The position numbers and the translations under genes were made by a program. A DNA stretch of 64,000 nucleotides, taken from NCBI GenBank assembly GCA_963920705.1, contig OY987227.1, positions 22,159,434-22,223,433 on the forward strand. Direction: 5' to 3'. This DNA comes from Odiellus spinosus (taxonomy: Eukaryota; Arthropoda; Arachnida; Opiliones; Phalangiidae). The notes below the pieces were generated by a model. That model saw nothing but the letters and a program-made list of their open reading frames with translations, ran no database searches and was not told the DNA's origin. Positions 5,491 through 62,319 of this stretch are shown in pieces (position 1 is the stretch's first letter; each line of letters begins with the position of its first letter).

Positions 5491-5917
5491 ATACGGCCAC
5501 GTCCATACACATCAGTCTTTTAAAAAAAACACAAGATCTCCCGGAGCCCTTTCTAGGTTTTCACAAATTAGTTTTATTTTTACCTCGCTTTTAGCATAAG
5601 CTATATATAATATTTTTAAGATAAGATAAGAGAGGTTGTTCATATTTTATAATCCAACCATAAAAAATATAGAAAATGACACTATATTTGCTCAAGATTC
5701 TAAGCCCAAAAGCACCGTGTACATAAAATAGAAGTACCGTATATAGAGCGGCATGGATCCAAAAAAAACCTAACATTTTCCGGTACAAGAACGGGTAAAG
5801 TTGGGAACAAGATATCCCGCAGGCAATGTAGCAATCTTTCTCACTAACGCATCAGCCCGAGTCTTTCCCGAGATGAGAGAGTGAGAACAGAGAACCAAGA
5901 GTCAGTTTACATTTTAG
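5491..5917. other. Unassigned sequence
   Basis: Nothing beyond short chance frames (5591-5788 on the minus strand) was found. The last seven bases, ATTTTAG (5911-5917), are the left target duplication of the element that follows. Confidence 0.5.
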
Positions 5918-6254
5918 CAGAAGCCGATGAAACCCTCCTTTGAAGTCTATTACTCCCGGGTCTTGTCTACCCCTCTCTGTATGAGTTAGTTTCAAAAAGC
6001 GCGATTCGTACGCCTCCTAACGGTAGATATTTTCGGAGCGGGAGTTCGTCGAGCGAATATCTCTAGCAGCCTTGGAGTTCGTCCAAAAAACGTCGTCGTT
6101 TGTGGAGATAGAGAATTTCCAATTTTCCGTAGACAGGGGGTATGAAGTAGGACCCCTCCGATCTCGCAAAATCGTGAATTTTACCCATACAGAGAGGCGC
6201 GCTATATGGAACATTAGAGTAGTAGACTTCAAAGGAGGGTTTCATCGGCTTCTG
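5918..6254 (-). mobile_element. Family C MITE, copy 1 (337 bp)
   Basis: It starts CAGAAGCCGATGAAACCC and ends with the complement GGGTTTCATCGGCTTCTG. The inverted repeat runs about 36 bases, followed by a second matching block around CCTCTCTGTATGGGT on each side. It is flanked by a perfect 7-bp duplication, ATTTTAG (5911-5917 and 6255-6261). It is in the reverse orientation relative to the copies at 44413, 50393 and 61977. Short open frames on both strands (60-74 codons) recur in other copies only because the copies are young. There is no transposase, so it is non-autonomous. Confidence 0.95.
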
Positions 6255-8637
6255 ATTTTAGCCAGGCAACGAGATATTTTACGCCAAAGAAGTTAAAAAC
6301 AAAATATATACGAAGATAGACATTACAAGATACGCAGTATTTTTCATCCACCCGCGCTGATAACACGGCTATACAAGCTTTATAACATTATCTCTCTCTA
6401 CACCTAATAGGAACACATTGCTTTTTATATACCAGGCTATCTTTTTTTGTCCTCGGGATAATTTTTTCCCCATCCCTTTCTATCCATAAACGAAGAGCGA
6501 ATACTTCAGAAGGTTCTAAGGTGTGGGAGTTTAAAGAAATCTCATTTATTCTTACAAGCTTATACTAAGTAATAGAGTTCTAAAATTACCGTAACTTTGG
6601 GAATTCGCAAATTACGCGGTAATTTACAGTCTCGCTGTAATTTAGCGATACTAAGAAAATGTTTAGTATTTGAATTTCAATGATTTGAATTAAAAGCTTC
6701 AAAATTCTTATTTCTGACTTAACAATCCATGTTTTTCATGATACGTTTGACCATTTGACTTTACATTCATACTGCAAAGTGATTCAGACATGAAAAATTA
6801 CACTAATATGTCCTTAACGACGATAAACACGAATAAACATATCCCTTGGTTCCGCTTGATGACGGTGTTTGATTCTGGGACGTAATTAATGAAAATAAAA
6901 GTAACGAAAGGTAGACCTTTCGTTCACAAAGAGTGGCTCGTTTGAAGTGACAGAATGAGCAAAAAACAACTGCATCTATAATATTCACGTGACCATATTA
7001 ATGACGTAATATGCCGGAAATGCTTAATTCCTAAATATTTAATAAATAAAGCTTTTCGTTTAACCCGGCACGTTAACAAGCTTCGAGTAACAGAAAACCG
7101 GATATCAAAATGAATTTCAGATAAGCTTCCCTTAATTGTAAAAGCGAAAGCTTGAAAAATCATGACTGAAAACGAGGTCTTAAGGTTAGTCTATAGACTG
7201 TTGTTATAATTTCCTAGATTAGTGTCACCCTTCTATTATCTTCTTAAATTAAGAGGGAAATTATTATCAATATATATAGTGAGATCTTTTCATCTTGAGT
7301 TTGCAGCGTATACCAAGCTAGGTTTCCGGTTACTTCTATGTTTTGTTTATTTAGATATATATTAATATAAGACAAGTTTCCCATCGTAATGATGGGGAAA
7401 TATAGTCTAATCCAACTTGGATTATCAGTATGACTTCAGTTATGCCCATATGATTTCGGAGCAAAACATTACCAGAGAGATAACGTATATTAGAAGTTTG
7501 TACGCGCTGCAAATTAAGGGTGAGGTTGATAATAACCATATATAAGAGTTTATACCTTATCACTGCTTGGTTTGTTTGCCGGGATGTTCAGATGAAGTAA
7601 AAGTTTTTCGAGAGCGAGAGAGAGAGCGAGAGAGAAACCCAAACGAAAGGGGAAGGAGAAAAGTGTATAATGGAAGTTTGCGAAGACTACTTGTTTTCAA
7701 CATTGTATATCAATACGCCTCAGCTTTACCCGATTTTGCCACATATTCTTGAACAGGAGAATTCATTTTCCCCATCTTCTAGAAAGCTTTATATTGAGAA
7801 AGAGAGACGGGAAAAAAAATTTACTGTATAAAAAGTAACCCACCAGAGCGTACGGAACCATAGGGATGGTCTTTGACAATGGGAAGCATCTGCATACAAG
7901 ACCTTTTCCCCCCTTTTTTTTTTTTAAAAAAAAGCATGCGCTGATTTTATTCAATAGAGACGAAGTACACGCTCGCGGAAGGATAGCTTGTGTATTGACA
8001 TATTGTTAAAAGGGTTTAATATGGCGGAAAGGTTAGTTTTTTTTCCTCCCTCTTGTCGATGTTGGTCTATTGAATTGGACCAGATGATGCATATAGAGTT
8101 TTGATCATAACTTGTACCAAGACTAGTTAATTTTTTTTTCTTCTTTCTCTCAGGGTTATTTAGTTTCAAACACAGAATTCATTTCGAACTCTACAAAACA
8201 AGATAATTCTATGGCTATATTAGCTTTTCCCAGATTGAAATTTTAGTCTGAACATGATTATAAACTCGGGAAAAATATTTTTCAATAAGGATATTTTCCA
8301 ACTTTTTCTGATACTTATTTTTGTATGAAAAATAGGTTTTTATGGACCGAGCTTTATATTTGCTAGAATTTATGATTAAAAAGAAAATATTTATATGTAG
8401 AAATATTCTAAATTCATTCAAAAAGCTCGTATAAAAAACTATCATATTAATAAACTAGAAGAAATATATGGAAAAGAAGAAAAAAGAAAAGTTATTTGAA
8501 TTTTTTCTCTCTAAAATCACAGACATTTATGCTTACATTATTTACCACATGTGATGTTTAGTAATTTGGAGTTACTTTATATTTAAGCCAAGAAACTTCA
8601 TGGTATAGTTCTAAACTTATTCCCAATCAAAGAAAAA

Positions 8638-8678
<41 letters not shown>

Positions 8679-9230
8679 AGAGATCTGTCGCGCGCTTTCG
8701 TTAAAATAAATTAACTTGAATAGGCTAGATTTCCGGCGGAATCTACAATAATTTGTCTTCGCCCGTTTGTATAAAATTTAAAATCGTTTTTAAGAAATTC
8801 CAAAATTAAAAGGACATAAATTTCTAACGATATTTCTGAAAATGTTGCTTAGATTAAACTCGTACATTTAAATTGGATAATTTCAAAATTAAATAAATAA
8901 ATGGTTTCAAAGTGGTCGTTTAGTTAATAAGCCCCTTAAGAATGGACCAAATATGTGACCAAGTTACATTAATTATTTCATGTTCTAATTAACGGTTTAT
9001 AAAACGTTTACTAGGTCATTTGATCGAGTGTCGAGACCCGCGTTAATTTTCTTTACAATTATTACAATTGAAAACCAAGAAAATACGAGGTTACGGGGTT
9101 AATTATCTGGCTACATTAATGTCAATAAAACTAATTTAAAAAGTGATATACTCGTATATAATTTGTGTTCTCAAACAAATGTAATTGACACCATTTAACT
9201 GACTTAAACTAATTAATAATCTAATTTTAT
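6255..9230. other. Unassigned ~3 kb; simple repeats only
   Basis: There is no supported gene. Visible details are a palindrome CGAAAGGTAGACCTTTCG near 6904-6921 that recurs in the family E fragment near 32590, so 6730-7000 may be a decayed E copy on the minus strand. There is also a GA-rich tract at 7607-7636, an abutting T then A run near 7913-7935, and a 35-base A run at 8641-8675. All frames of 60-79 codons look like chance. Confidence 0.4.
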
Positions 9231-9234
9231 TTAA

Positions 9235-9667
9235 AGGGAGAATGCAACCTAATTACAAGTTATTTTTTATCGATTCCTTATCGTTTAAATAGGCCTAATC
9301 CACCGATAAAAGTTTACAATACAAATATTAAACTAGAAATAAATTTAAAACTTACCCTGAAAATAGGCTTAGCGGGATTCATGGAGATCCTGAATCGCGT
9401 CCGTGTAAGGTCTAGCGCCCAATGAGCAAAGACCCGTCGTTCACGCGAGATCTCCACGAGACTTACGTCGCGCGCGATTGGTCGCTAGACCTTACACGCG
9501 AGGAAATCAGGACCTCCATGAATCCCACAAAGCCTATTTTCATTGTAAGTTTTAAATTTATTTCTAGTTTAATATTTGTTTGTAAATTTTTTAAATAGTG
9601 GATTAGGCCTATTTAAACAATAAGGAATCGATAAAAAAATCACTTGTTGTTAGGTTGCATCCTCCCT
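9235..9667. mobile_element. Family D foldback MITE, copy 1 (433 bp)
   Basis: It is bounded by TTAA on both sides (9231-9234 and 9668-9671), with ends AGGGAGAATGCAACCTAA and TTAGGTTGCATCCTCCCT. The two halves are reverse complements for most of their length (arms of about 150 bases or more carrying ATCGATTCCTTATCGTTTAA and GGCCTAATCCAC), around a GC-richer centre with GAGATCTCC. TTAA duplication plus the TTAAAGG end is the signature I know from T2/Kolobok-type MITEs. piggyBac-type mobilisation is the alternative. It is non-coding. Confidence 0.9.
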
Positions 9668-9921
9668 TTAAGACTATTTTAGTCATGGGTCAGTACTCGT
9701 TTGTATCGAGTAAATAGATTGCTTATCGATACTAGTATTTAGTATCTTTCTGTTCATTTAAATGATTTTATTAATCGAGACGTTTTTAGTATTAATTACT
9801 GGATAATTAATTTTTCTATAAATAAACGTTTAAACATTAGCCATTTTAATGTTTTAACTACTAATAAAATATATATAATTTGAAAATGATATTCATACTA
9901 AAAAATACAAATTGCAATATC

Positions 9922-10417
9922 AGGATTCCTACAAAATTTTGAAAGTTAATTTCCCTGACTTTTCCAAGTTTTCCCTGACCATTTCCAAATAATTTCCCTG
10001 ACCAATTTTAATATTTTTTCATGAATATAGTCTTACGAGCGAGCTGTTGGTTATTCCCACATTTTATTTGACATAGTTTATCAATCGGGGTCAGCTGATA
10101 GTTTACTCAGAATATGAGAAACAATTTGAATCTGTAGGCAAATATTTTCAGTGTATAATAATTAAGTTACAACTGATTGGTAAACCAAATCATAAACAGT
10201 TCCTTGACACATACCAAAATATTTATTTTCTCTGACCATTTGGGCTATTTTCTAATTCTTTGACTTTTCCCTGATCTATTGGAGCAATTTTCAAATTCCC
10301 TGACTTTTCCCTGACCTTTAGAGCCACTTTCCAAATTCCCTTACCTTTCCCTGACTTTTTGGGCCAATTTCCAAATTCCCTGACTTTTCCAGGTTTTCCA
10401 GGTCGTGTACGAACCCT
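9922..10417. mobile_element. Family B element, copy 2
   Basis: This is the full-length partner of 2293-2780. It begins AGGATTCCTACAAAATTTTG and ends TCGTGTACGAACCCT. The shared middle includes ATTCCCAC..TTTATTTGA and a right-hand array of TTCCCTGACTTTTCC units. The minus-strand frame 10223-10444, rich in GKVRE repeats, is only the translation of that array. Confidence 0.85.
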
Positions 10418-11769
10418 GAATATATAGTTTAATATTTGTATCAAAGAATGAGAAATTATGCAATCGGGGAAAACTAGAATTATATATAAAAAAAGAATAC
10501 CAGCCCTTAATATTCTTTACTCGATGGAAAACGCTACGAAAATCGATAATCGGGTTTAGAAATTTTTGATATTAAATTGCCCATACCTACTAGATTTATA
10601 TTTAGGTTAGGTTTTCTACTCAAATTTACTTATCTACTACAACACAAAAAAACCGCAAAAAATGGCTTCCATAAAAAAAATGCTAACTCGGCCTTTAAAA
10701 TATATTTAAACATTCTGATCCACGCAATAACAATATTAAATCGTTTCAAAAATATCATATCCTACAAAACCTAACGTCATTACCTGAACCATTTCGATAA
10801 AACGGCAAAAACAGATTTTCTTCCAATTTCAGAAAATAAGAAAACAATAAAAGTAAAAGAAAGAAATCTGGAAGCCGAAAAAAATAAATTCGATTTTCTA
10901 CTTTCTATCCCTCTATCGCGCGTGCCTCAGCCTGTAATATTGGTTGGTTCGAAACCTACTACATGCATGCTCGAACATTTCCTTGGTACAAACTCAAAGC
11001 TTGGCCAAAAGTACAGCACCTGAGCGCGACAGTGAAATTCCATTTTCTCTTATACCTATATCCCTGGAAAGTTTCCTTACCCTACATCTACCCGCGTACT
11101 GTATGTGTTAAGCAAAAAAAAGTATATACAGGGAACCGTATATGGTAAAGGTAAAACGGTAGAGGTAGGGTTAACATTACGGTATAATTCATTCCGATTC
11201 GGAACCGGGGAAAAACGGCGAAAGGGCTTTATTTCAACGTTGTTAGCGTTTTTGGAGCGTATAATAACGCGATTTAAGCAGATAAGAACTTTGCCCCGTA
11301 TAGTTCAACCCACCGTACGTTAGGGAAAGAAGCTCAAGCCGAGGCTTAGTAACCACGGGAGAAAAAAAGAATATATATAAAGATGGGAAAACTTCTACAT
11401 ATCTTTATAAACATACAACCTTAGCTATAAGTTCCGTCGCACACCAAATAATTTGGTTTTATCACACTAGACAAACTATCGGAGTAGAAGGCTCATGGAA
11501 ACCTGACAGCTGGTCAAACTAAGTATGTTTCGGGTTCGCTGAATGGCTGTATACCTCTAACGTCATTAGAATCACGTGAATTTTAAATGACGTCATTGTC
11601 TTTAAGGCGAAAATTTTGTCAGCCATCTTATTTGGGGCTTTTTTTGCATTGGTATATTCGTTAACTTTAATATCTGATGGAAAGTTCGATGAAATTTATA
11701 TGCAACGAAATTGTAACATTTCTACATTATGGGATCTATTGGAAAAACATAACCCTGCTTAAGTATTAC
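10418..11769. other. Unassigned sequence
   Basis: AT-rich until about 10900, then more mixed. Frames at 10577-10774, 10963-11148 and 11105-11323 are short and unrecognised. A GGTTCGAAACC near 10949 resembles a tRNA B box, but no tRNA fold surrounds it. The last seven bases, GTATTAC, are the left target duplication of the next element. Confidence 0.4.
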
Positions 11770-12179
11770 CAGAGGTATATAATAACCCCCTTCGGGGGGG
11801 AAGTATGAAAGCCCCTATACTACCAATGCTAAAAATCACGAACTACAAGAGCCCGCTGCTGACTATCTAGGCCACTAGCTCGCGCTGGACTTCTCAATGT
11901 CGCTACTCTAGTAAACGGTCTTTGTATAAACAAGGCGGCTCGATTTGTGTTTAGAACGTCCTGTCTCAGGAGTCAGGCTGTCTGTTAAAAATGGAGTCGA
12001 AGGTTGACTTCAGCTCGCAAGTTCCGGAAGTGTGCGTAGCGAAATTTTAGTGAGGTTCAAAATGGTGTAACTATTTTTTGGGAGTAAAGCGGTGTATCGA
12101 TCCGCCGCGATTTACGCCGGGCACTTGTTGTTCGTCGATTTTGCCTACCTTTCATACTTCCCCCCTCTGGTGTTACCTA
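11770..12179 (+). mobile_element. Family I MITE, copy 1 (410 bp, right end trimmed)
   Basis: It starts CAGAGGTATATAATAACCCC and finishes CTTTCATACTTCCCCCCTCTG. The right inverted repeat lacks the internal GAAGGGGGTTATTATATAC segment present in copies 2 and 3. Flanks GTATTAC (11763-11769) and GTGTTAC (12180-12186) match in 6 of 7 positions, consistent with a 7-bp duplication that has since mutated. The body aligns with 16375-16770 in the same orientation and with 17535-17952 in reverse. A 79-codon frame overlapping the right end is a by-product. Confidence 0.9.
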
Positions 12180-13320: not shown

Positions 13321-13365
13321 GAGTGGTAATAAATTTTAAACGGAACCTTTTAAACTAACGGAAAA

Positions 13366-13755
13366 AGATGAACATCAAGATGGCCGCCTGCAAAAAGATG
13401 AGAGTTAGATGGACGCCTGAAAAAAGATGAAAAGCAAGATGGCCGCCTGAAAAAAAAGATGAAAATTAAGATGGAAGCATGAAAAAAGATGAAAAGCAAG
13501 ATGGCCGCCTTAAAAAAGATGAAAAGTAAGATGGCCGCATGAAAAAAGATGAAAAGTAAGATGGCCGCATGAAAAAAGATGAAAAGTAAGATGGCCGCAT
13601 GAAAAAAGATGAAAAGTAAGATGGCCGCATGAAAAAAGATGAAAAGTAAGATGGCCGCATGAAAAAAAAGATGAAAAGTAAGATGGCCGCATGAAAAGCA
13701 AGATGGCCGCCGAAAAAAAGGTGGAAAGGAAGAGGACCGCCCTTAAAAAGATGAA
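13366..13755. repeat. Minisatellite, 30-bp unit with AAGATGGCCGC
   Basis: There are about 12-13 units based on AAGATGAAAAGTAAGATGGC followed by CGCATGAAAA. The middle (about 13535-13690) is almost perfectly homogeneous and the edges are degenerate. Because the unit length is a multiple of three and lacks a stop, minus-strand frames of 63-64 codons (13466-13660, 13510-13701) appear, translating as MRPSYFSSFF repeats; I regard them as artefacts. Most units carry AAGATGGCCGC, one base from the YY1/Pleiohomeotic consensus AAGATGGCGGC. Confidence 0.95.
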
Positions 13756-13759
13756 AATA

Positions 13760-13965
13760 AAAATTAGAATTAAGTGAAAAATTAAATCTTCTTAAAATTA
13801 GAATTAAGTGAAAAATTAAATCTTCTTAAAATTAGAATTAAGTGAAAAATTAAATCTTCTTAAAATTAGAATTAAGTGAAAAATTAAATCTTCTTAAAAT
13901 TAGAATTAAGTGAAAAATTAAATCTTCTTAAAATTATAATTAAGTGAAAAATTAAATCTTCGATT
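13760..13965. repeat. Tandem array, 34-bp unit, six copies
   Basis: The unit AAAATTAGAATTAAGTGAAA-AATTAAATCTTCTT starts at 13760, 13794, 13828, 13862, 13896 and 13930, exactly 34 apart. The last copy runs into CGATTTGGTATCGTTAC, the same sequence that follows the single copy near 12932-12978. The array is therefore a recent local expansion inside the second copy of a larger module. Confidence 0.95.
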
Positions 13966-14909: not shown

Positions 14910-15072
14910 TAGAAATAATTAAACAGGACGAAGGAACCGATCAAGAGGATTTTGTTCGCATATGCCTTGGGTGTGGATTGGGCGAAATAAGAATTTGGCA
15001 ATTATGGAATTATGCGAAATGTGATTTGGCGAAATGGGAATTAGGGGAAATGGGATTGGACGAAATAGGATT

Positions 15073-15420
15073 GGGCCTAATAAATTGGGCTGATTGGGAA
15101 TTGGGCCTAATAAATTGGGCTGATTGGGAATTGGGCCTAATAAATTGGGCCGATTGGGAATTGGGCCTAATAAATTGGGCCGATTGGGAATTGGGCCTAA
15201 TAAATTGGGCTGATTGGGAAGTGGGCCTAATAAATTGGGCTGATTGGGAATTGGGCCTAATAAATTGGGCTGATTGGGAATTGGGCCTAATAAATTGGGC
15301 TGATTGGGAATTGGGCCTAATAAATTGGGCTGATTGGGAATTGGGCCTAATAAATTGGGCTGATTGGGAATTGGGCTGATTGGGAATTGGGCTGATTGGG
15401 AATTGGGCTGATTGGGAATT
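15073..15420. repeat. Tandem core: 30-bp unit x10, then 16-bp unit x3
   Basis: GGGCCTAATAAATTGGGCTG followed by ATTGGGAATT repeats every 30 bases from 15073 to 15372, with only a few T/C substitutions. Three copies of the 16-base GGGCTGATTGGGAATT follow. The 16-mer equals the second half of the 30-mer, so the array shows two stages of expansion. The 133-codon frame across it is an artefact of the stop-free unit length. Confidence 0.95.
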
Positions 15421-15484: not shown

Positions 15485-16374
15485 AATCGGGGTAGAACCT
15501 CTAAAACAGTTAATATAAAATGGGTTTAATATCTTCATTCTAAGAAAAAATTAAAACAATTAATAGTTCAAATAAGCACGGGCAATTTGCAACTGCTTTT
15601 GAACTAACTCCAGTAATTTATTTTTTCATCCCAAATTTAATGGAATTATTCAATTTCAAAAGAGAAATCATTTTCTAAAGCGTCAAAAATGGAATTTTTT
15701 TTTTTTTTTTTCCATAAGCAAATTAGCAATTTTAGTAACTGTAGTGCATTTGACAGTTGCCTAAGCTTTGAAGAAAAAAAAATCTAATTCATTATTTCGA
15801 AGTCCAGATTGACGTATATATAGAGAGAGTAAATTCACTCTGAATAAGAAAAATTAGGAAGCAAAAAATACTGAACAAAAACTCTTACGGAAGATGTATA
15901 GGGAACTGGCAGAAGGGGATGACTTAAAGAAGTGAATTGACATATATTCTAGTTGCAACCTTGAAAGGAACACAAATTTCCATAGAAAAACCGGTTTTTT
16001 AAGGTTAAAATCGAGTCTATTTTGGAAATAGTTTTAAAAGGGGGAAAATAATTTCATTTATAGCTTAGAAATCTTGAAAATTTGATTTAGCGGGCCTATT
16101 TTCGATTTTTAGAGCCCCTGTAAAGTCGCCTTCTTTCCTTTTTTAGCGGACGACGTTTACCATAACAAATTTTACAGTCAAAGCTAGGCTGTGTGCGTAA
16201 GGGAAGATGATTTTAAAAAGGGAAAGTTCTAGAGCAGATAGGGCAAATGAAACTTGAGTAGCACTTTCAGGAAGGTCGTATAAAAAATATATGAAATATA
16301 AATATATATACAATGAATCAAAGAAACTTCACAAGAAGTCACAGTAATTATTTATCAATAAAATCAGAGGTATA
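15485..16374. other. Unassigned AT-rich sequence
   Basis: There is a T run near 15695-15711 and AT-rich single-copy sequence otherwise. The last seven bases, ATAAAAT (16368-16374), are the left target duplication of the next element. Confidence 0.5.
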
Positions 16375-16770
16375 TAATAACCCCCTTCGGGGGGAAGTAT
16401 GAAAGCCCCTATACTACCAATGCTAAAAATCACGAACAACAAGAGCCCGCTGCTGACTATCTAGGCCACTAGCTCGCGCTGGACTTCTCAATGTCGCTAC
16501 TCTAGTAAATGGTCTTTGTATAAATAAGACGGCTCGATTTGTGTTTAGAACTTCCTGTCTCAGGAGTCAGGCTGTCTGTTAAATTGGAGTCGAAGGTTGA
16601 CTTCAGCTCGCGAGTTCCGGAAGTGTGCGTAAGGAAAATTTAGTGAGGTACAAAATGGTGTAACTAGTTTTTGGGAGTAAAGCGGTGTGTCGATCCGCCG
16701 CGATCTTGTTGTTCGTCGATTTTGCCTACCTTTCATACTTCCCCCCGAAGGGGGTTATTATATACCTCTG
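16375..16770 (+). mobile_element. Family I MITE, copy 2 (396 bp)
   Basis: Both inverted repeats are intact: CAGAGGTATATAATAACCCC at the left and its complement ending TATATACCTCTG at the right. The terminal 40 or so bases match closely and include a CCCCCTTCGGGGG mini-palindrome. The flanks are a perfect 7-bp duplication, ATAAAAT. A small internal deletion lies between GCCGCGATC and TTGTTGTTCG relative to copy 1. It has no coding capacity. Confidence 0.95.
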
Positions 16771-17534: not shown

Positions 17535-17952
17535 CAGAGGTATATAATAACCCCCTTCGGGGGGAAGTATGAAAGGTAGGCAAAATCGACGAACAACAAG
17601 TGCCCGGCGTAAATCGCGGCGGATCGACACACCGCTTTACTCCCAAAAAATAGTTACACCATTTTGAACCTCACTAAAATTTCGCTACGCACACTTCCGG
17701 AACTTGCGAGCTGAAGTCAACCTTCGACTCCATTTTAACAGACAGCCTGACTCCTGAGACAGAAAGTTCTAAACACAAATCGAGCCGTCTTGTTTATACA
17801 AAGACCATTTACTAGAGTAGGGACGTTGAGAAGTCCAGCGCAAGCTAGTGGCCTAGATAGTCAGCAGCGGGCTCTTGTTGTTCGTGATTTTTAGCATTGG
17901 TAGTATAGGGGCTTTCATACTTCCCCCCGAAGGGGCTTATTATATACCTCTG
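17535..17952 (-). mobile_element. Family I MITE, copy 3 (418 bp)
   Basis: It has intact CAGAGGTATATAATAACCCC / complement ends. The body is in the opposite orientation to copies 1 and 2: the GGTAGGCAAAATCGACGAAC side comes first. The 7-bp duplication CTATAGC (17528-17534 and 17953-17959) is perfect. The 62-codon minus-strand frame at its left end matches one in copy 1 only through shared ancestry. Confidence 0.95.
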
Positions 17953-21129: not shown

Positions 21130-21866
21130 TTTGACGTACTGTTAATACTCCATATTTAAATACACCCCTGGGTCAAGAAGGATCAGATAAGGAGAGGAAA
21201 AGTGGGGCTGCGTTGAGTTAGAGAGAAAAGAGCCAACCTCCCACTCGGGTGGAAAGGGGGGGGGGGAGGAAATTCTCGAGGTAAACTGTTGTCACGTGGT
21301 CGCTAGCTAGCGCGTCTCATAAAGGATTCGTTTTACCCACGTGACAACAATTTACCACGAAGCATCTCTACCCCCGTTCTTCCAGAGTGGGAGTTTAGGC
21401 CGACGCAGTAGGAGCCGCGCCGTTCCCACTTTTTCTCTCCTTATCTGATCCTTCTTGCCTGGGTTGACCCGTTTTTAAGAAACCGCAAAATTAAAATTAT
21501 AAATAATATAATTTTTCACCTAACGATTCTGAAACTACACGACAAGTTTAGAACTTCCTGGATTAAGTACTTTCACGAATAAGACTATGAGAAGACAACC
21601 GTATCAGAACACACGAGAAGCAACTGTAAGCTTTGTAATATCCTCGCGATCAAAGTGATGACGTAGAATTTCGTGGAATTTTTGTTTTAAAAATTTTCAA
21701 AGATGGCGAAATTCTATAAAATAATTAGTTTTACAGTTTAAGTAATTTTTTTCTATATCTTATGTATGTAAACATATATTTTGAATATTTTTTTTTAACC
21801 ATCTTTCCGAAAAGGCTACTCAAATACCATTCGGAACTCATGAAAAATTCATTACAGCCTCAGGGT
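21130..21866 (-). mobile_element. Family E element split by an H insertion
   Basis: Read on the minus strand, the right part begins GAGGCTGTAATG (ending near 21866), like the TTAAAGTGAGGCTGTC end of 56734-57138. It then follows the E motif order: GCCATCTTTGAAAA, CTACGTCATCAC, GATCGCGAGG and TTCGTGAAAGTACTTA. The sequence on the two sides of the H element (CACCCCTGGGT, then TTGACCCGTTTTTAAGAAAC) rejoins to match the E copy at 57070-57090 and the fragment at 27360. The left boundary is uncertain. Confidence 0.6.
21174..21457 (+). mobile_element. Family H MITE, copy 1 (284 bp), nested in family E
   Basis: Ends are CAAGAAGGATCAGATAAGGA and the complement TCCTTATCTGATCCTTCTTG, with about 33 bases of inverted repeat. 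There is a perfect 7-bp duplication CCTGGGT (21167-21173 and 21458-21464). An inner palindrome, GTTGTCACGTGG..CCACGTGACAAC, surrounds a CTAGCTAGCGCG core. Compared with copies 2 and 3 it has an expanded G run near 21256-21266. It interrupts a family E element and is therefore younger than it. It is non-coding. Confidence 0.95.
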
Positions 21867-25640: not shown

Positions 25641-25915
25641 TCAAACGCTTCCTCTTCCCGGTTACCTCTACGCACAAACGCTTCCCCTTCCCGGTTACCT
25701 CTACGCACAAACGCTTCCCCTTCCAGGTTACCCCTACGCACAAACGCTTCCCCTTCCAGGTTACCTCTACGCACAAACGCTTCCCCTTCCAGGTTACCCC
25801 TACGCACAAACGCTTCCCCTTCCAGGTTACCTCTACGCACAAACGCTTCCCCTTCCAGGTTACCTCTACGCACAAACGCTTCCCCTTCCAGGTTACCTCT
25901 ACACTCAAACGCTTG
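25641..25915. repeat. Minisatellite, 33-bp unit, 8+ copies
   Basis: ACGCTTCC starts units at 25646, 25679, 25712, 25745, 25778, 25811, 25844 and 25877, exactly 33 apart, and a decayed ninth begins at 25910. The unit contains CCCTTCCAGGTTACC(T/C)CTACG. Since 33 is a multiple of three, several frames on both strands stay open (115, 124, 151 and 166 codons). The plus-strand frame reads YAQTLPLPGYL repeats. Equal openness on both strands argues for a structural by-product rather than a protein. Confidence 0.95.
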
Positions 25916-28125: not shown

Positions 28126-28405
28126 CAAGAAGGATCAGATAAGGAGAGGAAAAGTGGGGCTGCGTTGAGTTAGAGAGAGAAGAGCCAACCTCCCACTCGG
28201 GATATTAAATTTTCGAGGTATACTGTTGTCACGTGGTCGCTAGCTACCGCGTCTCATAAAGGATTCGTTTTACCCACGTGACAACAATTTACCACCAAGC
28301 ATCTCTACCCCCGTCTGTCCCCCGTTCTCCCAGAGTTGGAGTTTAGGCCGACGCAGTAGGAGCCGCGCCGTTCCCACTTTTCCTCTCCTTATCTGATCCT
28401 TCTTG
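28126..28405 (+). mobile_element. Family H MITE, copy 2 (280 bp)
   Basis: Ends CAAGAAGGATCAGATAAGGA and complement, with a perfect 7-bp duplication CTTCGAC (28119-28125 and 28406-28412). The body matches copy 1, including the GTTGTCACGTGG..CCACGTGACAAC palindrome. It lacks the G run and has a short extra CCCCCGTCTGTC duplication near 28309-28326. Confidence 0.95.
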
Positions 28406-29078: not shown

Positions 29079-29649
29079 AGGGAGAATGTAACCTAACTAC
29101 AACTTATTGTCGATTCATTATATTTTAAATAGGCCTAATCCACCACTAAAATTATTTAAAGACAAATATTAAACTAGAAATAAATTTAAAACTTAGCTGG
29201 AAAATAGGCTTAGCTGGATTCGTGGAGATCCTAATTTCTTCACACTGAGCAATGAGCACAGGCCCGCGTTAGGGCGAGATCTCCACGAGACTTTCAATAA
29301 CACTCGATTGGTCGATGACCCTTCAATGCGAAGAAATTTAGGATCCCCATGAATCCAACTAAGCCTATTTATCCAGGTATGTTTTAGATTTATTTCTTGC
29401 CTATTTAAACGATAAGGAATTAATCCTTTACTCCTCATATAAGGGCCATCGATCAATGCCATTGGTCGATAGCCCTTTATATGGGGAATGCAGGATCTCC
29501 ATGAATCCAACTAAGCCTATTTTCCGGGAAAGTTTCAGATTTATTTCTAATTTAATATTTGCCTAATTTTTTTCTTACTGGTGGATTAGGAATATTTAAA
29601 CGAAAAGGAATCGATAAAAAAAAATCAATTGATAGGTTGCATTCTCCCT
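29079..29649. mobile_element. Family D foldback MITE, copy 2 (571 bp, extended)
   Basis: TTAA flanks both ends (29075-29078, 29650-29653). Ends are AGGGAGAATGTAACCTAA and GGTTGCATTCTCCCT. It is longer than copy 1 because the right half carries a second internal block: the sequence GGATC(T/C)CCATGAATCCAACT and AAGCCTATTT appears at about 29342 and again at about 29489, separated by a CATATAAGGGCCATCG..CGATAGCCCTTTATATG palindrome. A 105-codon minus-strand frame inside is a by-product. Confidence 0.9.
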
Positions 29650-32785: not shown

Positions 32786-33066
32786 CAAGAAGGATCAGAT
32801 AAGGAGAGGAAAAGTGGGAACGGCGCGGCTCCTACTGCGTCGGCCTAAACTCAAACTCTGGGAGAACGGGGGTAGAGATGCTTCGTGGTAAATTGTTGTC
32901 ACGTGGGTAAAACGAATCCTTTATGAGACGCGCTAGCTAGCGACCACGTGACAACAGTTTACCTCGAGAATTTCCTATCCCCCCTTTCCACCCGAGTGGG
33001 AGGTTGGCTCTTCTCTCTCTAACTCAACGCAGCCCCACTTTTCCTCTCCTTATCTGATCCTTCTTG
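32786..33066 (-). mobile_element. Family H MITE, copy 3 (281 bp)
   Basis: It has the same CAAGAAGGATCAGATAAGGA ends with the body reversed relative to copies 1 and 2 (GGAACGGCGCGGC side first). The flanks AGAAAGA and ACGAAGA agree at 5 of 7, so the duplication is decayed or was imperfect. The inner palindrome with two CACGTG sites is intact. Confidence 0.93.
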
Positions 33067-33898: not shown

Positions 33899-34210
33899 GG
33901 GTTGCCACTGTTTTTTCAGATTCAAATTCCCTGACTTTTCCAGGTTTTTCCCTGACCGTTTCAGCTAACCTTTTATTTTTATATAATTGCGTTCGTCAAG
34001 CTTTTTACATGCATATCTTTGTTATAATCTATACAATTGACACGGTAAGCTTCAAATTTTTTCTGCAGATAATGGTTGTAATTTCCTGGCTTCTTGAGAT
34101 ATCTTTAAATTCCCTGACTATTCCCCGACTTTTTAAAATATCTTAAAATTTCCTGATTTTTTTGGTTCATTTTCAAATTCCATGACTTTTTCCTGACCTG
34201 TGGCAACCCT
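33899..34210. mobile_element. Inverted-repeat element carrying TTCCCTGACTTTTCC motifs
   Basis: The left end GGGTTGCCACTG and right end CTGTGGCAACCC are inverted repeats of about 11 bases. Just inside each lie TTCCCTGACTTTTCCAGG-type motifs, in the left part and again in the right third (34100-34195). A GGT on both sides could be a 3-bp duplication. The motif is shared with family B, but the termini are different. Confidence 0.75.
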
Positions 34211-35288: not shown

Positions 35289-35585
35289 CAGAAGCCGATG
35301 AAAGCCTCCTCTGTATGGGTAAAATTCCCAATTTTGCGAGATCGAAGGGGTCCTACTTCATACCCCCTGTCCACGGAAAATGGGAAATTCTCTCTCTCCA
35401 CAAACGACGACGTTTTTTTGACGAACTCCAAGGCTGCTAGAGATATTCGCTGGCCGAACTCCTGCTCCGAAAATATCTACCGTTAGGAGGCGTACGAATC
35501 GCGCTATTTGAAACTAACCCATACAGAGAGGGGTAGACAAGACCCGGGAGTAATAGACTTCAAAGGAGGGTTTCATCGGCTTCTG
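35289..35585 (+). mobile_element. Family C MITE, copy 2 (297 bp, left arm deleted)
   Basis: It starts CAGAAGCCGATGAAAGCCTC and ends GGTTTCATCGGCTTCTG. About 40 bases of the left arm between CCTCC and TCTGTATGGGT are missing relative to the other copies, which joins two CTCC-containing points. The flanks ATAAAAC (35282-35288) and ATACAAC (35586-35592) match at 6 of 7, so this is probably an older insertion. Confidence 0.9.
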
Positions 35586-38277: not shown

Positions 38278-39256
38278 AAACTAAGATTTTAGCAGAGCTT
38301 TTTTTTTTTTTTTAAATAGCTAAGATTTTAGCAGAGCTATTTTTTTTAAAATAGCTAAGATTTTAGCAAAGCTATTTTTTTTTAAATAGCTAAGATTTTA
38401 GCAGAGCTATTTTTTTTAAAATAGCTAAGATTTTAGCAGAGCTATTTTTTTTAAAATAACTAAGATTTTAGCAGAGCTATTTTTTTTAAAAATAACTAAG
38501 ATTTTAGCAGAGCTATTTTTTTTAAATAGCTAAGATTTTAGCAGAGCTATTTTTTTAAATAGCTAAGATTTTAGCAGAGCTATTTTTTTTTAAAATAGCT
38601 AAGATTTTAGCAGAGCTATTTTTTTTAAATAGCTAAGATTTTAGCAGAGCTATTTTTTTTAAATAGCTAAGATTTTAGCAGAGCTATCTTTTTTAAAATA
38701 GCTAAGATTTTAGCAGAGCTATCTTTTTTTAAATAGCTAAGATTTTAGCAGAGCTATTTTTTTTAAAATAGCTAAGATTTTAGCAGAGCTATTTATTTAA
38801 ATCCCAAGATTTTAACAGAGCTATTTATTTTTAAATAGCTAAGATTTTAGCAGAGCTATTTTTTTAAATAGCTAAGATTTTAGCAGAGCTATTTTTTTTA
38901 AAATAGCTAAGATTTTAGCAGAGCTATTTTTTTAAAATAGCTAAGATTTTAGCAGAGCTATTTTTTTTAAATAGCTAAGATTTTAGCAGAGCTATCTTTT
39001 TTAAAATAGCTAAGATTTTAGCAGAGCTATTTTTTTTAAATAGCTAAGATTTTAGCAGAGCTATTTTTTTTAAAATAGCTAAGATTTTAGCAGAGCTATT
39101 TATTTAAATCCCAAGATTTTAACAGAGTTATTTATTTAAATCCCAAGATTTTAACAGAGCTATTTATTTAAATTACAAGATTTTGGCAGAGCTATTGTGT
39201 AATTTCTAAGATGTTGGCAGAACTACTGTGTAATTCCAAAGATTTTAGCAGAACTG
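38278..39256. repeat. Minisatellite, ~35-bp unit, about 29 copies
   Basis: The unit is AGCTAAGATTTTAGCAGAGC followed by TATTTTTTTTAAAAT, varying in T-run length. I count about 29 copies of the AAGATTTTAGCAGAGCT core, the last few diverged. Variant units recur at a constant distance: GCTATCTTTTTT at about 38683 and 38991, and ATTTATTTAAATCCCAAGAT at about 38791 and 39098. This shows a higher-order block of about 307 bp that was duplicated. It is the largest array in the window. Confidence 0.97.
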
Positions 39257-44412: not shown

Positions 44413-44749
44413 CAGAATCCGATGAAACCCTCCTTTGAAGTCTACTTCTCTAATGTTCGATATAGCGCTCCTCTCTGTATGGGTAAAATTCACAATTTTA
44501 CGAGATCGGAGGGGTCCTACTTCATACCCCCTGTCTACGCAAAATTGGAAATTCTCTCTCTCCACAAACGACGACGTTTTTTTGACGAACTCCAAGGCTG
44601 CTAGAGATATTCGCTCGACGAACTCCCGCTCCGAAAATATCTACCGCTAGGAGGCGTACGAATCGCGCTTTTTGAAACTAACCCATACAGAGAGGGGTAG
44701 ACAAGATCCGGGAGTAATAGACTTCAAAGGAGGGTTTCATCGGCTTCTG
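44413..44749 (+). mobile_element. Family C MITE, copy 3 (337 bp)
   Basis: It starts CAGAATCCGATGAAACCC and ends GGTTTCATCGGCTTCTG. There is a perfect 7-bp duplication GTTGTAT (44406-44412 and 44750-44756). It is full length with both terminal and subterminal (CCTCTCTGTATGGGT) inverted repeats. Frames of 65-72 codons on both strands recur in other copies by descent. Confidence 0.95.
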
Positions 44750-46190: not shown

Positions 46191-46547
46191 ATGACACCAG
46201 AAATAGATGAACCGATATTATCAACGAGCTATTCCTCTAACGCGACAGGCAAGTTCTCCGTTTCCCCTCTCTTAGACGACAGTTGTAGCCCCCTCCCCCG
46301 CGGAATTTCGCCTAGCCGAGAAACGTTGAATGCGCCACCTGGCTTGGTTTGCAGTCGTCGCTACGTGGGGCGATCAGTTTCCCAAGATCCTCCTCGGTAT
46401 TTCATTGAGGCCGAGGAAGCCCATTCCACCAGTGCTTACCCTCCCCATTCACTCCAAATAAAATGCATTTCCCAATCTAAGCTCTCGTTGATAATTTCGG
46501 TTCATCTATTTCTGATGACACTCACTCATTTTGATATCGTAATTTAA
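46191..46547 (+). CDS. Doubtful 118-codon open frame in a GC-rich patch
   Basis: The ATG has A at -3 (AAAAATATGA). The first 90 or so codons lie in a clearly GC-richer patch with balanced codon use (opening MTPEIDEPILSTSY, then Ser/Pro/Arg-rich), and the last 25 or so codons run into AT-rich sequence and look like non-coding extension. If real, it would probably be an exon that ends before about 46460. I see no domain. The patch could instead be a regulatory CpG-rich element. Confidence 0.2.
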   Translation: MTPEIDEPILSTSYSSNATGKFSVSPLLDDSCSPLPRGISPSRETLNAPPGLVCSRRYVGRSVSQDPPRYFIEAEEAHSTSAYPPHSLQIKCISQSKLSLIISVHLFLMTLTHFDIVI

Positions 46548-50392: not shown

Positions 50393-50731
50393 CAGAAGTA
50401 GATGAAACCCTCCTTTGAAGTCTACTACTCTAATGTTCGATATAGCGCTCCTCTCTGTATGGGTAAAATTCCCAATTTTACGAGATCGGAGGGGTCCTAC
50501 TTCATGCCACCTGTCTACGGAAAATTGGAAATTCTCTCTCTCTCCACAAACGACGACGTTTTTTTGACGAACTCCAAGGCTGCTAGAGATATTCGCTCGA
50601 CGAACTCCCGCTCCGAAAATATCAACCGTTAGGAGGCGTACGAATCGCGCTTTTTGAAACTAACCCATACAGAGAGGGGTAGACAAGATCAGGGAGTAAT
50701 AGACTTCAAAGGAGGGTTTCATCGGCTTCTG
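50393..50731 (+). mobile_element. Family C MITE, copy 4 (339 bp)
   Basis: It starts CAGAAGTAGATGAAACCC and ends GGTTTCATCGGCTTCTG. There is a perfect 7-bp duplication CCTATAT (50386-50392 and 50732-50738). It is full length and nearly identical to the copies at 44413 and 61977 over the interior. Confidence 0.95.
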
Positions 50732-56046: not shown

Positions 56047-56133
56047 AAGTAATCGCTAAAAGGTAATCGAGTAATCGATTACTTTAGCTAGTAATTGTAA
56101 TCGGTAATTGAACCTTTCTGAGTAATCGGATCT
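56047..56133. repeat. Degenerate GTAATCG-type repeat with palindrome
   Basis: GTAATCG or a close variant occurs about six times, including the palindrome GTAATCGATTAC near 56081. GATCCG at 56030 and CGGATC at 56127 could be ends of a small element. Similar GATTACGCGTAATC motifs occur near 44115. Confidence 0.5.
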
Positions 56134-56729
56134 AACACCATTGTCATTGGTCAGAATCCTTTAAAAAATTCACTCGATATTCCTCTCCAACCTGCCTTTA
56201 AACCAAACTTTTTGGAGATTGAAATTTCAAAATAAAATTCTTCCGAGTGATCACCGAACATTAACAATTATTTGATTATGTCTCATAATACAAAGTTGAC
56301 GTCATTAGGAGACGTTTTTCTAGCATCTTGGATTTTTGTTGAGAAAGATATTTACTGAAATATTACTAAGACAGCTATGAAGTAGCCGTCTTTTCATTAA
56401 TAATAATAAGTAATAATATATGTTCGACATGGCAAATAAATCTCAATTTATGATACTAAGAAGTTTTTAAAACCTAATTTCGAAACATATTTTCCAAGTA
56501 AACAAGGTAAAAAAAAAATAATAATAAAAAAGAAATAAAAATTTGGAATTCTGGGTAAAACTAACTCTGAGTTTTTTTAAATTTAAGCACATTTCCATGC
56601 ACGAGTATCTAAATTTAAAGCACAAGAAACTACACTAGTAAAAAAGCTTCTTAAAAGCTTTTTTCATTCATTTTCCCTAGGCTCGGCTTCATATACCAAG
56701 AGCTAAGAACCTATTTTGAAAACTTTTAT
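56134..56729. other. Unassigned AT-rich sequence
   Basis: No supported frame or repeat. The TTAA at 56730-56733 begins the next element. Confidence 0.45.
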
Positions 56730-56733
56730 TTAA

Positions 56734-57138
56734 AGTGAGGCTGTCCAAGTAGAAAATGAGTTGGAATTTTTGAAAATGTCGTTCACTACTATCCAAAATA
56801 TGTCATAGAAAAAAAAATACGGTAACAGTAATAATACATATTTTAGAATCGCCATTTTCGAAAATTTAAAAATAAAAATTCTCCGCATTACTATTATAGA
56901 GCTATTACAGAGCCTATACAGTTGATTATCACACGTTTTGGCACGTGCCAAGGTTGCTTTCGCGGGGCTTTTTTCGTAAAAGTACTTAGAATCTTTCGTA
57001 TCAAAATTATCGTAAAATTACGTTCTAGAAATAAACTACGTCATTTTCATTTTGAAGTTTCATGAGAACGCTTCTACCCAGAGGTACAAAGCGAAATATA
57101 ATCCATGGGCATTCGTAAACAATTGTGATAGCCTCACT
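56734..57138 (+). mobile_element. Family E MITE, best-ended copy (405 bp)
   Basis: TTAA on both sides (56730-56733, 57139-57142). Ends AGTGAGGCTGTC and GATAGCCTCACT are complementary over about 11 bases. The interior shares GCTTTTTTCGTAAAAGTACTT, ACTACGTCATTTTCATTTTG and ATAATCCATGGGCATT with 32444-32736 and 42708-43092. The 73-codon minus frame at its left end is a by-product. Confidence 0.85.
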
Positions 57139-57142
57139 TTAA

Positions 57143-59129
57143 TTAAGAAACTTATGGAGAAACACAAAATAGGAAAATGTCTTCGTCAGTCCGAATTAGT
57201 ACAAAAATATGGTAAAACGGTAAATTAAACCTAAAATTAAAAAATTACCTAAAACCAAAAGATTATTTCACAAAATATGAAGGAAATATTAGAGTTGAGG
57301 AATTTCTACTACTTCTAGCACTAACTAGTCTAATTAAGGGTCTATTTTTAGTATTCAACGAATCAATCAAATTGTAGCGTAACTACGTCATTTCCACTGC
57401 CCCTTTAATAATGAAAACCAACTGACAAACGCACCCTCTCTGCCGTCATTCTTACTCCTCCTTATACTAGTTACATTCTTCCTTTACTGCAGGCTTTTGA
57501 GTGAAATTTAAAAATGTCCCGAAATCGCGGAGGCGACAAAAGGGGTGGTATAATAATGGGTGCATACTGATGGTAGAGAGAGGCCCTGCTACTCTTTTCA
57601 AAGGATGTTGCATCTCTCATTGTTTCACGGGGTTTTCAACACCCCCCCTATAAAAAAGGGCTTCGAATACCCCCTTGTACACCCCTTCTCTTTCATACAT
57701 GGATTTTTCCTACCACAAAAACAATTAGTGGGCAAAGGCATAATTAAAGCTCCCTTTTTCCCTCATTTTACTCGCTTTCATTCCATTTTTTAGCTACATC
57801 CGTTTAAAAGAATAGTTTTTGCGGCGTGCTACTCGTTTATTAATAACTAGAAAAGTGCCGTTGACGTCTGTTGGTTTGAAAAAAAAGAAGCCAAATTGGC
57901 TGCTGTGTAGGATTTAGATGCAGCAAGGACATAAGTGGATCATCTCGAAGTATAAACAGACCTTTCCTATTCAATATTGTCTTATTGGAGTATGAATTAA
58001 ATCACGATGTCTTTACTCGTAGATAATTCGAGTTGACACAGACTACATTTTCCTCTAAAGTTTAAGGTTTAAGATCTGTGTTTTTCCCATTCTTCCATGT
58101 ATACATATTGTATTAGGGTAATCAATCGTATATATTTATCACAGCCGATCAAACTTCAAGAGATGTTTAATAAAAATTCCCTACAGAGGGGCCAGCACTT
58201 GAAGCGTCATTTTTACCCCTCCCCAGTTCTAGGAAAAACAATACTTCTGGCGGAAAAACAACCTGTAGGGTCTATTCAGTGGAAAACCTCAGGCGGATTG
58301 ATACAAAATTCAAAACTTCATAAGAAAATAGTGTCAACAGGGGCAAAGTTTACCAATTCAACTTTGGTTTCCCAACTCTGGTGGGGGGAGATGGTGGTTG
58401 AGCCTCCTCCCTGCCGCCTTCCTCGCTTCGAGATTTTTTTTTTATCATGGTTCTAACGGTGCAGACATTACAATGGACTCACCACCTTGTTTTTATCTCG
58501 GGTTCATTGGGAGAGTTTTTGAAAAGAGAAGGTCTTCTCTTGATGGCAAATAACTAAAGGGTAGCGAGGCGAATGGACAGATGAGGGGAGGAATGAATCT
58601 AGCGAATTAAGAAAGAATAGGAGGAGTAGGAGGCCACCCGTTAATAAGTAAATACGACTAATTACCAAAAGTTTACCAGAGAAATAAGGACGACGAAAAT
58701 TTCTTGGTTTTACTACGCTTTGGGGGAAACAAAGTCGTCCTACGCCGCGTGTATGGAGAGTTTTTAGTACGATCTAACTCCAGCTGGACAATTAACGTGG
58801 GAAACAGGGTTAATTTCGGAGGGCAAACGCGTAATAGCTCTCGTTATTCCGTCAATACGTTCCGGCGCTATACTAATATTTGGGAAATATACATTCGCAT
58901 GGTTGAATGAACTTGTAAATGGCGAGGGTAAATGGTCAATTTTTATAGAAGAGAGTTGCATGCAGGGTTTCTATATACATAAGACACTATAGTCACGACA
59001 TTTGACTACTACGAAATTATGTTAAGAGCTAACTAAAAAAATATCATTATGTATGGAATCCTGGTCGCATGTCGACGTCAGGAGGGAAGGGGGTCTTACT
59101 AGTTTGTCCATTTTTTTGGGTTTTTGCAA
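57143..59129. other. Unassigned sequence
   Basis: Frames at 57560-57793, 58097-58456 (119 codons) and 58704-58910 on the plus strand have no recognisable domain or splice context. No repeat partner was noticed. Confidence 0.4.
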
Positions 59130-59765
59130 ACCAATCAAGCAAACCTTGCTAAACTTTAAAAAATAAGTTTCCTAAAATAATTTTTGAAAAACAAAATTTG
59201 CGTCAAAACTACAAGTGGATGATGGATGGAAATTGGGCTTGGTTTGCAGACTGGATTTGCAAAACTATTTGGGCAAAAAAAAAAAAAAAAATAGGATGGG
59301 TAAAATTTAGGCAAGGTTTCATAATTTGATGGAAATTTGATGAAAATTTGATGAATGGATAAAAGTTGCACAAGGCTTGCTGTTTTGTTTCTTTTACCAG
59401 ACTAAATCTGTAAGTCTTATTGTCCAAGTTTCATCCACCCTATATATAATAGTTTTACCAAATTATATTTGCAAACCAAATCGGCCAACCTTATCCATTT
59501 TTTATCCACACCTATTAGGCCCAAATCAATTTTGCAAACCAAATCTACAAACTATGCCCAACTCTTGTTAAATCAAGTCTGTAAACCCTACCCAGCTTCC
59601 TTTCACCTAATTAAGCCAAACACTTTGGCAAACCAAGACTAAAAATCTTGACAAACCTTTACCCATCTAATAGTTTATTCAAATTATTTTTGCAACCTAA
59701 ATCTGCAAACCTCGCTTCCTAAATCCATCTAAATTGCCGAAATTCTTTTTGAAACCTAAAAATTG
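59130..59765. repeat. Degenerate foldback minisatellite (family L)
   Basis: The left part (about 59210-59390) carries GGGCTTGGTTTGCAGACTGG and GGATTTGCAAAACTATTTGG. The right part (about 59440-59765) carries the complement type, GCCCAAATCAATTTTGCAAA and CAAATCTGCAAACC, several times with 40-60 base spacing. An A run lies at about 59276-59291. The layout of opposed arrays resembles 14644-15484. Open frames here (59156-59427 minus, 59377-59571 plus) are products of the repeats. Confidence 0.65.
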
Positions 59766-59785
59766 ACGGACAGATTTAGAATTAG

Positions 59786-60120
59786 CAGAAGCCGATGAAA
59801 CCCTCCTTTGAAGTCTATTACTCCCGGGTCTTGTCTACCCCTCTCTGTATGGGTTAGTTTCAAAAAGCGCGATTCGTACGCCTCCTAACGGTAGATATTT
59901 TCGGAGCGGGAGTTCGTCGAGCGAATATCTCTAGCAACCTTGGAGTTCGTCAAAAAAATCGTCGTTTGTGGAGAGAGAGAATTTCCAATTTTCCGTAGAC
60001 AGGGGGTATGAAGTTGGACCCCTCCGATCTCGTAAAATCGTGAATTTTACCCATACAGAGAAGAACGCTATATGGAACATTAGAGTAGTAGACTTCAAAG
60101 GAGGGTTTCATCGGCTTCTG
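59786..60120 (-). mobile_element. Family C MITE, copy 5 (335 bp)
   Basis: It starts CAGAAGCCGATGAAACCC and ends with the complement, in reverse orientation like the copy at 5918. There is a perfect 7-bp duplication GAATTAG (59779-59785 and 60121-60127). It is almost identical to the copy at 5918, and a few bases are missing near CGTCAAAAAAATCG. Confidence 0.95.
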
Positions 60121-60127
60121 GAATTAG

Positions 60128-61969
60128 CTATTAGCATGAGCTTCTCAAAAGCAACTTCATCTTTGAGCTAGGTCTCTTATCTCTAAAACTATTGGTAAAA
60201 ATATGGTAAAACTGTGAGGTTATTCCTCAAACTGCACTTAACAAAATTGGATATATAGGAATGGTTTCTGGTTTTGGATCGAAGCTCCATTCGCCGGATG
60301 CTAATTATTATAATTCAATTTTCCAAGAAGTTTCTGATCAGCCTTACGCAACGTATGTTAATTTTCAACAGCTAAAAGTTTTAGTAGTATACCGAAAAGC
60401 CCCCATTGGACTCGGAACTATAACAATTGAATTTTAGAACTAACAGCGAAATAGCCCGTGCAATTTTAGCATATTCGAAGAAGACCAAGATTCAATTTAG
60501 GTTCCGGTTCAATAAGGCAATTGTTGAAAACCGGAGTGTAAAATTATATTGAAGGGAGGGTAAAGTCGAAAATCTAGCAATTTCTTATCCATTCTGCAAC
60601 AATCAGCCCAGTTTGAGTAATAAAACCTTAGAGAAGTGTCTTTGAAGTTTACACTCCCATTAAAGAGAAAAAAAAAAACAATCGAATGAAATGGTTCCAA
60701 TAGACGAACCACAATTTCGATAAAGAAATAATCTTTTCGCCCTCCCTTTAAAATACGAACCGTATTTGAATATAAAACTAAAAGGAGCGATGCACTATTT
60801 AATAAACTTTAAAATTCAACTCGAAAGCAAAAGAAAATGTCAGACGCCTTATTAGCGTAAGGGCTCGGCTTATAAGGGCAGGCAGAAATAAATTGTAAAA
60901 TGGGGCGACGTTGGAAAAATTAAATTTCCGTTCCTGACCAGACCAACAATATAAAGCTGAACTATAGTAACATTTCACGTTGAGTTGGCGGCACGGGTAA
61001 AGCTATAGGCTTCATGTATCTCTAAGTCAACAAATTACAGGGATAACAGGGTAACCTAGCTTTACGCGTGTATGCCATTTCAAAGTGGAAATTACTACAT
61101 AAAGTATAGGAAGTTTTTAATCATGAGCGCGAGTAATAAAGTTAATTTTTGGCGAAGTAGCAATATGTTAAGCCTAATATAAAATTCGTGTACCAAATGT
61201 AAAATTAATCTAACCTCGAATTTTAACAATATAGTTAACAGAAATGATTTATTGCAGCATATACTACATATTCACCGAAAAAAAAAGGCCTGTTCTCAAA
61301 TTTTCACTAAATCCGGGAAGAAAAATGGATAATACATCATTTTCGGAACAATTACGTGCCAGACGTCATTACGCTGTAGAGGTTAAAGAATATCGTTCAG
61401 TATATTTCAACGAAAAGAATCCGGTTATTTGAGAATTAGTTTCCGGTTAGTTTTTTTATCGGCAACTTGTTAATTGAACGCATTTTTGGTACTTTGTATA
61501 AAAGCGTTTTCATTTTTTCAACCTCGTGGCAAAGGCTTAAGTAATTATAGCTAATAGTGATTACGATCGGTTTTAAAGAAATATTAGCTTTCACTAATTT
61601 ATAACTATTTATCACTGATAATAATACGTTTTAATCTCGGTTATAATTTACTCGAGGAACCGAAGGTGTTAGGTTGAAGAAATGGTAACATTTTTAAGTG
61701 AGAAACTAATGAGATAACTGGTCTGAATGTATTTGTTTTGTCCATGACAAAAGGATGAATGAAACAGGACAAAAAGTGTTTAAGTCTTTGAGTATATTCT
61801 AAATCGCTCTGAATTGTGAAGAATATTTAAAATGAAAAGTTTTGGCATGAAATTAGCAGCCACTCCAATCCAATCACAAGACAGCCACATTTTTGTGGTA
61901 ATTAACAAACGCGATATAGGTTCGTGTGCAAAGAAAAGTTGTACAAGTTTATGATAGAAAAGTATTTAA
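60128..61969. other. Unassigned sequence
   Basis: Frames at 60509-60712 (minus) and 61244-61432 (plus) are unrecognised. A near match to the I-SceI homing site lies at 61038-61055 and is described separately. Confidence 0.4.
61038..61055 (+). other. Near match to the I-SceI homing-endonuclease site
   Basis: CAGGGATAACAGGGTAAC matches the 18-bp I-SceI recognition site at all positions except the first and last (16 of 18). The natural I-SceI site is in mitochondrial large-subunit rRNA around the peptidyl transferase centre, so this could be a scrap of organelle-type rRNA sequence. The flanks do not look like rRNA, so coincidence is possible. Confidence 0.5.
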
Positions 61970-61976
61970 GGAATAC

Positions 61977-62312
61977 CAGAAGCCGATGAAACCCTCCTTT
62001 GAAGTCTACTACTCCAATGTTCCATATAGCGCTCCTCTCTGTATGGGTAAAATTCCCAATTTTACGAGATCGAAGGGGTCCTACTTCATACCCCCTGTCC
62101 ACGGAAAATTAGAAATTCTCTCTCTCCACAAACGACGACGTTTTTGGACGAACTCCAAGGCTGCTAGAGATATTCGCTCGACGAACTCCCGCTTCGAAAA
62201 CATCTACCGTTAGGAGGCGTACGAATCGCGCCTTTTGAGAATAACCCATACAGAGAGGGGTAGACAAGACCCGGGAGTAATAGACTTCAAAGGAGGGTTT
62301 CATCGGCTTCTG
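61977..62312 (+). mobile_element. Family C MITE, copy 6 (336 bp)
   Basis: It starts CAGAAGCCGATGAAACCC and ends GGTTTCATCGGCTTCTG. There is a perfect 7-bp duplication GGAATAC (61970-61976 and 62313-62319). Full length. The 95-codon plus frame and two minus frames through it recur in other copies only through shared descent. Confidence 0.95.
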
Positions 62313-62319
62313 GGAATAC

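Follow-up and report, generated by a model that had tools for sequence, protein, structure and literature searches.

What moves several families of short transposable elements that look unrelated to one another and leave target duplications of a single length? The question is raised by a 64,000-nucleotide stretch of the Odiellus spinosus genome (contig OY987227.1; hereafter the window), in which families C, H, I and K of miniature inverted-repeat transposable elements (MITEs) are flanked by 7-bp target-site duplications (TSDs). We conclude that all four families consist of nonautonomous cut-and-paste elements bounded by terminal inverted repeats (TIRs), most likely of the P superfamily (probability, roughly 0.62). 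The comparison with transposase-encoding residents of the host genome on which this assignment draws rests on P elements.

Four MITE families and their 7-bp footprint

A first-pass annotation of the window had reported six copies of family C, three of H and three of I, and all twelve insertions are present (Table 1). Their termini start as claimed, with CAGAAG (C), CAAGAAGG (H) and CAGAGG (I), and form near-perfect TIRs of ~38, ~33 and ~41 bp, respectively. The families also differ inside, as had been proposed: among the window copies, only isolated 10-mers are common across C, H and I. The end regions of C2 and I1 are damaged, and the right TIR of I1, ending at 12169, is short by ~20 bp. Through a de novo scan of the window for TIRs accompanied by duplications, we recovered eight 7-bp insertions, seven of them already noted and the eighth new. 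This element, K, has ends CAGAAATAGATGAACC and represents a fourth family, so that the three families described earlier are real but the set was incomplete. The copies, 280 to 418 bp long, are short, noncoding, bounded by TIRs, flanked by duplications and numerous (copies were counted for C, H and K), as expected of MITEs. No transposase domain was found in the 20 of 263 window open reading frames that were scanned.

Table 1. MITE insertions in the window and P elements resolved elsewhere in the host genome
Element	Type	Position	Strand	Length	Duplication	Remarks
C1	MITE family C	5918..6254	+	337 bp	ATTTTAG	
C2	MITE family C	35289..35585	-	297 bp	ATAAAAC/ATACAAC (6/7)	terminal region partly deleted
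C3	MITE family C	44413..44749	-	337 bp	GTTGTAT	
C4	MITE family C	50393..50731	-	339 bp	CCTATAT	
C5	MITE family C	59786..60120	+	335 bp	GAATTAG	
C6	MITE family C	61977..62312	-	336 bp	GGAATAC	
H1	MITE family H	21174..21457	+	284 bp	CCTGGGT	
H2	MITE family H	28126..28405	+	280 bp	CTTCGAC	
H3	MITE family H	32786..33066	-	281 bp	AGAAAGA/ACGAAGA (5/7)	duplication ambiguous
I1	MITE family I	11770..12169	+	400 bp	GTATTAC/GTGTTAC (6/7)	
I2	MITE family I	16365..16770	+	406 bp	ATAAAAT	
I3	MITE family I	17535..17952	-	418 bp	CTATAGC	
K	fourth MITE family	46198..46514	+	317 bp	ATGACAC	31-bp TIR CAGAAATAGATGAACCG..
B	P element				CTCCAAT (7 bp)	
L	P element				CTGAAAC (7 bp)	
J	P element				CTAGACC (7 bp)	
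Hh	P element				GATGTGAC (8 bp)	
In locus L080	P element				GTCCCAAT (8 bp)	ends TAGAGTATC; read by eye

To define the footprint, duplications in the window were scored at lengths of 3 to 12 bp and those of copies elsewhere at lengths of 5 or 6 to 9 bp. For nine of the twelve C, H and I insertions in the window, 7 bp is the one scored length that gives a perfect duplication; C2 and I1 agree at six of seven positions and H3 at five of seven. The H3 duplication is ambiguous, because a 4-bp reading (3/4) fits no worse by fraction. Two random 7-mers from the window agree by chance with a frequency of 0.00016. The same length was found beyond the window, where 12 of 16 host-genome copies have perfect 7-bp duplications and four match at 6/7. 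These comprise seven distinct C copies (five perfect, two 6/7), three H copies (two perfect, CAGCCAT and GCATTAC, and one 6/7) and six K copies (five perfect, one 6/7); the C copies of locus L005 repeat those of L004 and were counted once, and the C copy of L009, whose right end was not found within 1.5 kb, was left out. Pooling the 13 window and 16 host-genome insertions (n = 29) gave 22 perfect duplications, six at 6/7 and one, H3, at 5/7. The pool thus has a duplication length within the 7 or 8 bp of the P superfamily; it departs from the 8 bp of usual hAT elements and agrees with the 7 bp of hAT7-like ones. The strict 7-bp length emphasized in the first-pass annotation therefore holds, but it is less unusual than was claimed there, since Galileo, hAT7 and Kyakuja are credited with it in the portions consulted of PMC4168063, PMC2775673 and PMC12730594.

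We searched the host assembly (443,074,358 bases in 286 contigs) for exact matches to the ends of families C, H and K, with reversed patterns as a control for C and H. There were 19,543 matches to the C end (9730 + 9813), 3,250 to the H end (1640 + 1610) and 617 to the K end (309 + 308), and none to the reversed patterns in the same genome. Most of the 100 K-end matches listed pair at 317 bp, and five of six fetched K copies are 97.5 to 98.7% identical to the window copy, the sixth being 91.5% identical. Two arrangements of family H were also seen: a 631-bp copy (L142, 890-1520) carries the left end three times, 170 bp apart, with the perfect 7-bp duplication GCATTAC enclosing the entire copy, and four H copies lie inside 3.6 kb at G000:C1:8001183-8004734. 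Viral contigs gave no matches to the C, H or I ends. Among genome contigs there was a single C-end match, in a GC-rich Solirubrobacterales metagenome-assembled genome, the 6.8 kb of which lack the opposite C end; it was taken as chance.

P elements of the same genome as candidate sources

The first-pass annotation had named P-type elements as one candidate source, and such elements are abundant in this host: its genome yields 144 matches to the GBD domain of P transposases (PF21788), many of them in long open frames (150 of 164 candidates were scored). Parts of 85 of the 144 loci were read. Thirty were sampled with 1.5-kb flanks, ten of which were extended to ~3.1 kb on each side for end detection; 1.5-kb 5' pieces were taken at 60 loci (55 new and five extending earlier ones), and a second 5' piece was taken for 20. 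Both TIRs and a matching duplication were detected in four of the ten extended loci (B, L, J and Hh), and with the element in L080 this makes five resolved P elements, three with 7-bp and two with 8-bp duplications. One of the 7-bp elements, B, terminates in CA(A/G)AGAAAATATACCC (CAAAGA/CAGAGAAAATATACCC), that is, in the form CA(A/G)AGA. Ends are distinct from one P family to the next. MITEs carrying the ends of P family E are flanked by the 7-bp duplications GTAAAAC (L091) and CTCAAAA, the latter read by eye in a copy nested beside P element J. Elements B, L and J, together with these E-ended MITEs, show that the host genome harbors P elements, and MITEs linked to them, that leave 7-bp footprints.

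Seven P copies are ~98 to 99.8% identical over ~3.36 kb, and two are identical over 3342 bp; this near-identity suggests, from sequence comparison, that P elements of the host genome have recently been active. Identity, or ~98 to 99.8% identity, of P-transposase copies between loci was seen among L028, L029, L030 and L016-L020, L022, L023. The element in L080 has ~210-bp TIRs and is inserted in satellite-like sequence.

P transposases appear to be the best source of C, H, I and K mobility because 7-bp, CA-ended P elements are demonstrated in the host genome and because there are precedents in Galileo (7 bp) and in the P-MITEs of Anopheles (8 bp). A P-type transposase would bind the 31- to 41-bp TIRs, excise the element and join both ends to the target with a 7-bp stagger, and gap filling by host repair would then generate the 7-bp duplication. 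Several related P transposases, each with its own end sequence, are probably at work; we favor several over one because P ends are family specific and because family E has MITEs with the same ends as its own.

A number of results weigh against the assignment to the P superfamily. Two of the five resolved P elements leave 8 bp, P element E carries TIRs but no duplication that matches, and end detection failed in five of the ten extended loci (A, Cc, D, F and G). None of the five resolved P ends begins CAGAAG or CAAGAAG; they start with CAT, CA(A/G)A or TAGAG. In a shuffle test, the MITE ends had no significant similarity to P ends, the only MITE-P pairs below 0.05 being two C alignments that both rest on a 6-base end overlap. 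The family I end, CAGAGGTATATAATAACCCC, is closest in form to that of P element B, and this similarity is likewise not significant. In the parts read of the 85 loci, we found no P transposase flanked by ends of family C, H, I or K; the negative is a weak one, because most loci were read only in part and only from the 5' side. Two candidate ends were discarded. In L076/L080, CAAGAAGGATCAGA neighbors a P gene but is not part of the P element there, which is bounded by ends of its own and an 8-bp duplication; CAGTCTCCGATGAAACCC (L115/L121) falls inside the open reading frame. Two further points against, both concerning the target site, are given below.

The first-pass annotation had also proposed that one transposase moves families C, H and I. 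The duplication length common to the families, the alike pooled target preference and the ends of C and K, which agree by eye at 12 of 18 positions, speak for a single enzyme of whatever superfamily, a reading that cuts across P and hAT7-like origins. However, C, H and I share no internal sequence, their TIRs have just CA(G/A) in common and the K-C similarity was not below 0.05 in a shuffle test on 30-bp ends. The P families of this genome, moreover, have distinct ends, and the E-type MITEs carry E ends. Together with the failure to find, in the parts read, a P element that carries the ends of C, H, I or K, this leaves the proposal of a single transposase improbable. We are equally doubtful of its broader form, in which one P or hAT7-like lineage, its stagger fixed at 7 bp, mobilizes four or more MITE families that retain little more than CA(G/A) in common at their ends. 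If that were true, a single transposase lineage would tolerate very different TIRs and would have generated, within one genome, end sequences numbering in the tens of thousands.

Target preference and non-P origins

We pooled 22 MITE duplications, entering the left copy of imperfect pairs and leaving out L008 (low complexity, 6/7) and six K copies. T at position 2 and A at position 6 together account for 30 of 44 positions, versus 14.2 expected from random window 7-mers, and none of 5000 random draws reached that value. Symmetrizing the 12 window sites gives a pattern near GTAWTAC. On the other side, these 12 sites did not reach significance in a palindrome test (p 0.11 to 0.15), and the P-like preference GT...AC, which the pooled duplications do show, is not specific to P. 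The target preference of hAT elements is nTnnnnAn, and the motif at positions 2 and 6 therefore does not tell P from hAT.

This ambiguity bears on the possibility that the four MITE families belong to a hAT lineage that, like hAT7, leaves 7-bp duplications. The shared preference for T at position 2 and A near the end is compatible with it, and family I, with its CAGAG ends, conforms to YARNG, the rule that hAT ends usually follow. C and K (CAGAA) and H (CAAGA) break this rule, as their fifth base is not G. Duplications of 7 bp are reported for hAT7 of rust fungi in the portion consulted of PMC12730594; 8 bp is nevertheless the general hAT length, and it is for P elements that 7-bp duplications are demonstrated in the host genome itself. 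We regard a hAT7-like origin as unlikely.

An origin in another superfamily, whether KDZ, Dada or an undescribed one, seems less probable still. It gains from our not having found an autonomous partner in the parts of P loci read and from 7-bp duplications in Kyakuja (PMC12730594, in part) and 6- to 7-bp duplications in Dada (PMC3706591, in part), both of which are, however, reported without TIRs. PF18758, for KDZ, had no matches in the host genome, but the control was uninformative, its genomes being equally silent. Dada, the other candidate named in the first-pass annotation, was rejected: C, H, I and K have near-perfect TIRs of 31 to 41 bp, and no tRNA or Rfam match that could represent a Dada-type target was found in the window.

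With the P superfamily as the preferred source, these results add abundant MITE families with 7-bp duplications, as well as 7-bp and 8-bp P families within one genome, so that comparisons between close relatives could test how P transposases control the length of the stagger. They also advise caution in annotation, as CAGAG ends alone are insufficient for calling a MITE a hAT element.

Other repeats and comparison with known systems

The window contains further repeats. Palindromic repeats at 9290-9611 and 29130-29594, with ends like TAGGCCTAATCCACC and TTTAAA on both flanks, possibly constitute a TTAA-type element family. A tandem array of ~27 copies of a 35-bp unit occupies 38281-39196, and others lie at 13362-13961, 15070-15408, 25642-25914 and 730-1273, with units of 30, 34, 30, 33 and 175 bp. 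Units of ~40 bp (TTTTCCCTGACC..) form dispersed arrays at 2561-2755, 10226-10419 and 34108-34190.

Among known systems, Dada shares duplications of 6 to 7 bp but, in the text consulted of PMC3706591, has no TIRs and inserts strictly into small-RNA genes. The hAT7 elements of rust fungi also leave 7 bp, but they are fungal and their transposase is known (PMC12730594, in part), and the C, K and H ends, as noted above, stand against this comparison. The P-MITEs of Anopheles gambiae, with TIRs of P type, are, according to the portion consulted of PMC1562414, likewise short, noncoding, TIR-bounded and present in many copies with a duplication of fixed length; unlike the elements described here, with 7 bp and a master that was not found, they have 8-bp duplications and proven P masters. 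Galileo, a member of the P superfamily, differs in its long, internally repetitive TIRs, its encoded transposase and its other ends, but it leaves mostly 7-bp duplications (PMC4168063 and PMC2775673, both in part), and its target consensus, given as GTANTAC/GTATTAC in the section consulted of PMC4168063, is in the form GTANTAC near identical to the symmetrized pattern of the window sites.

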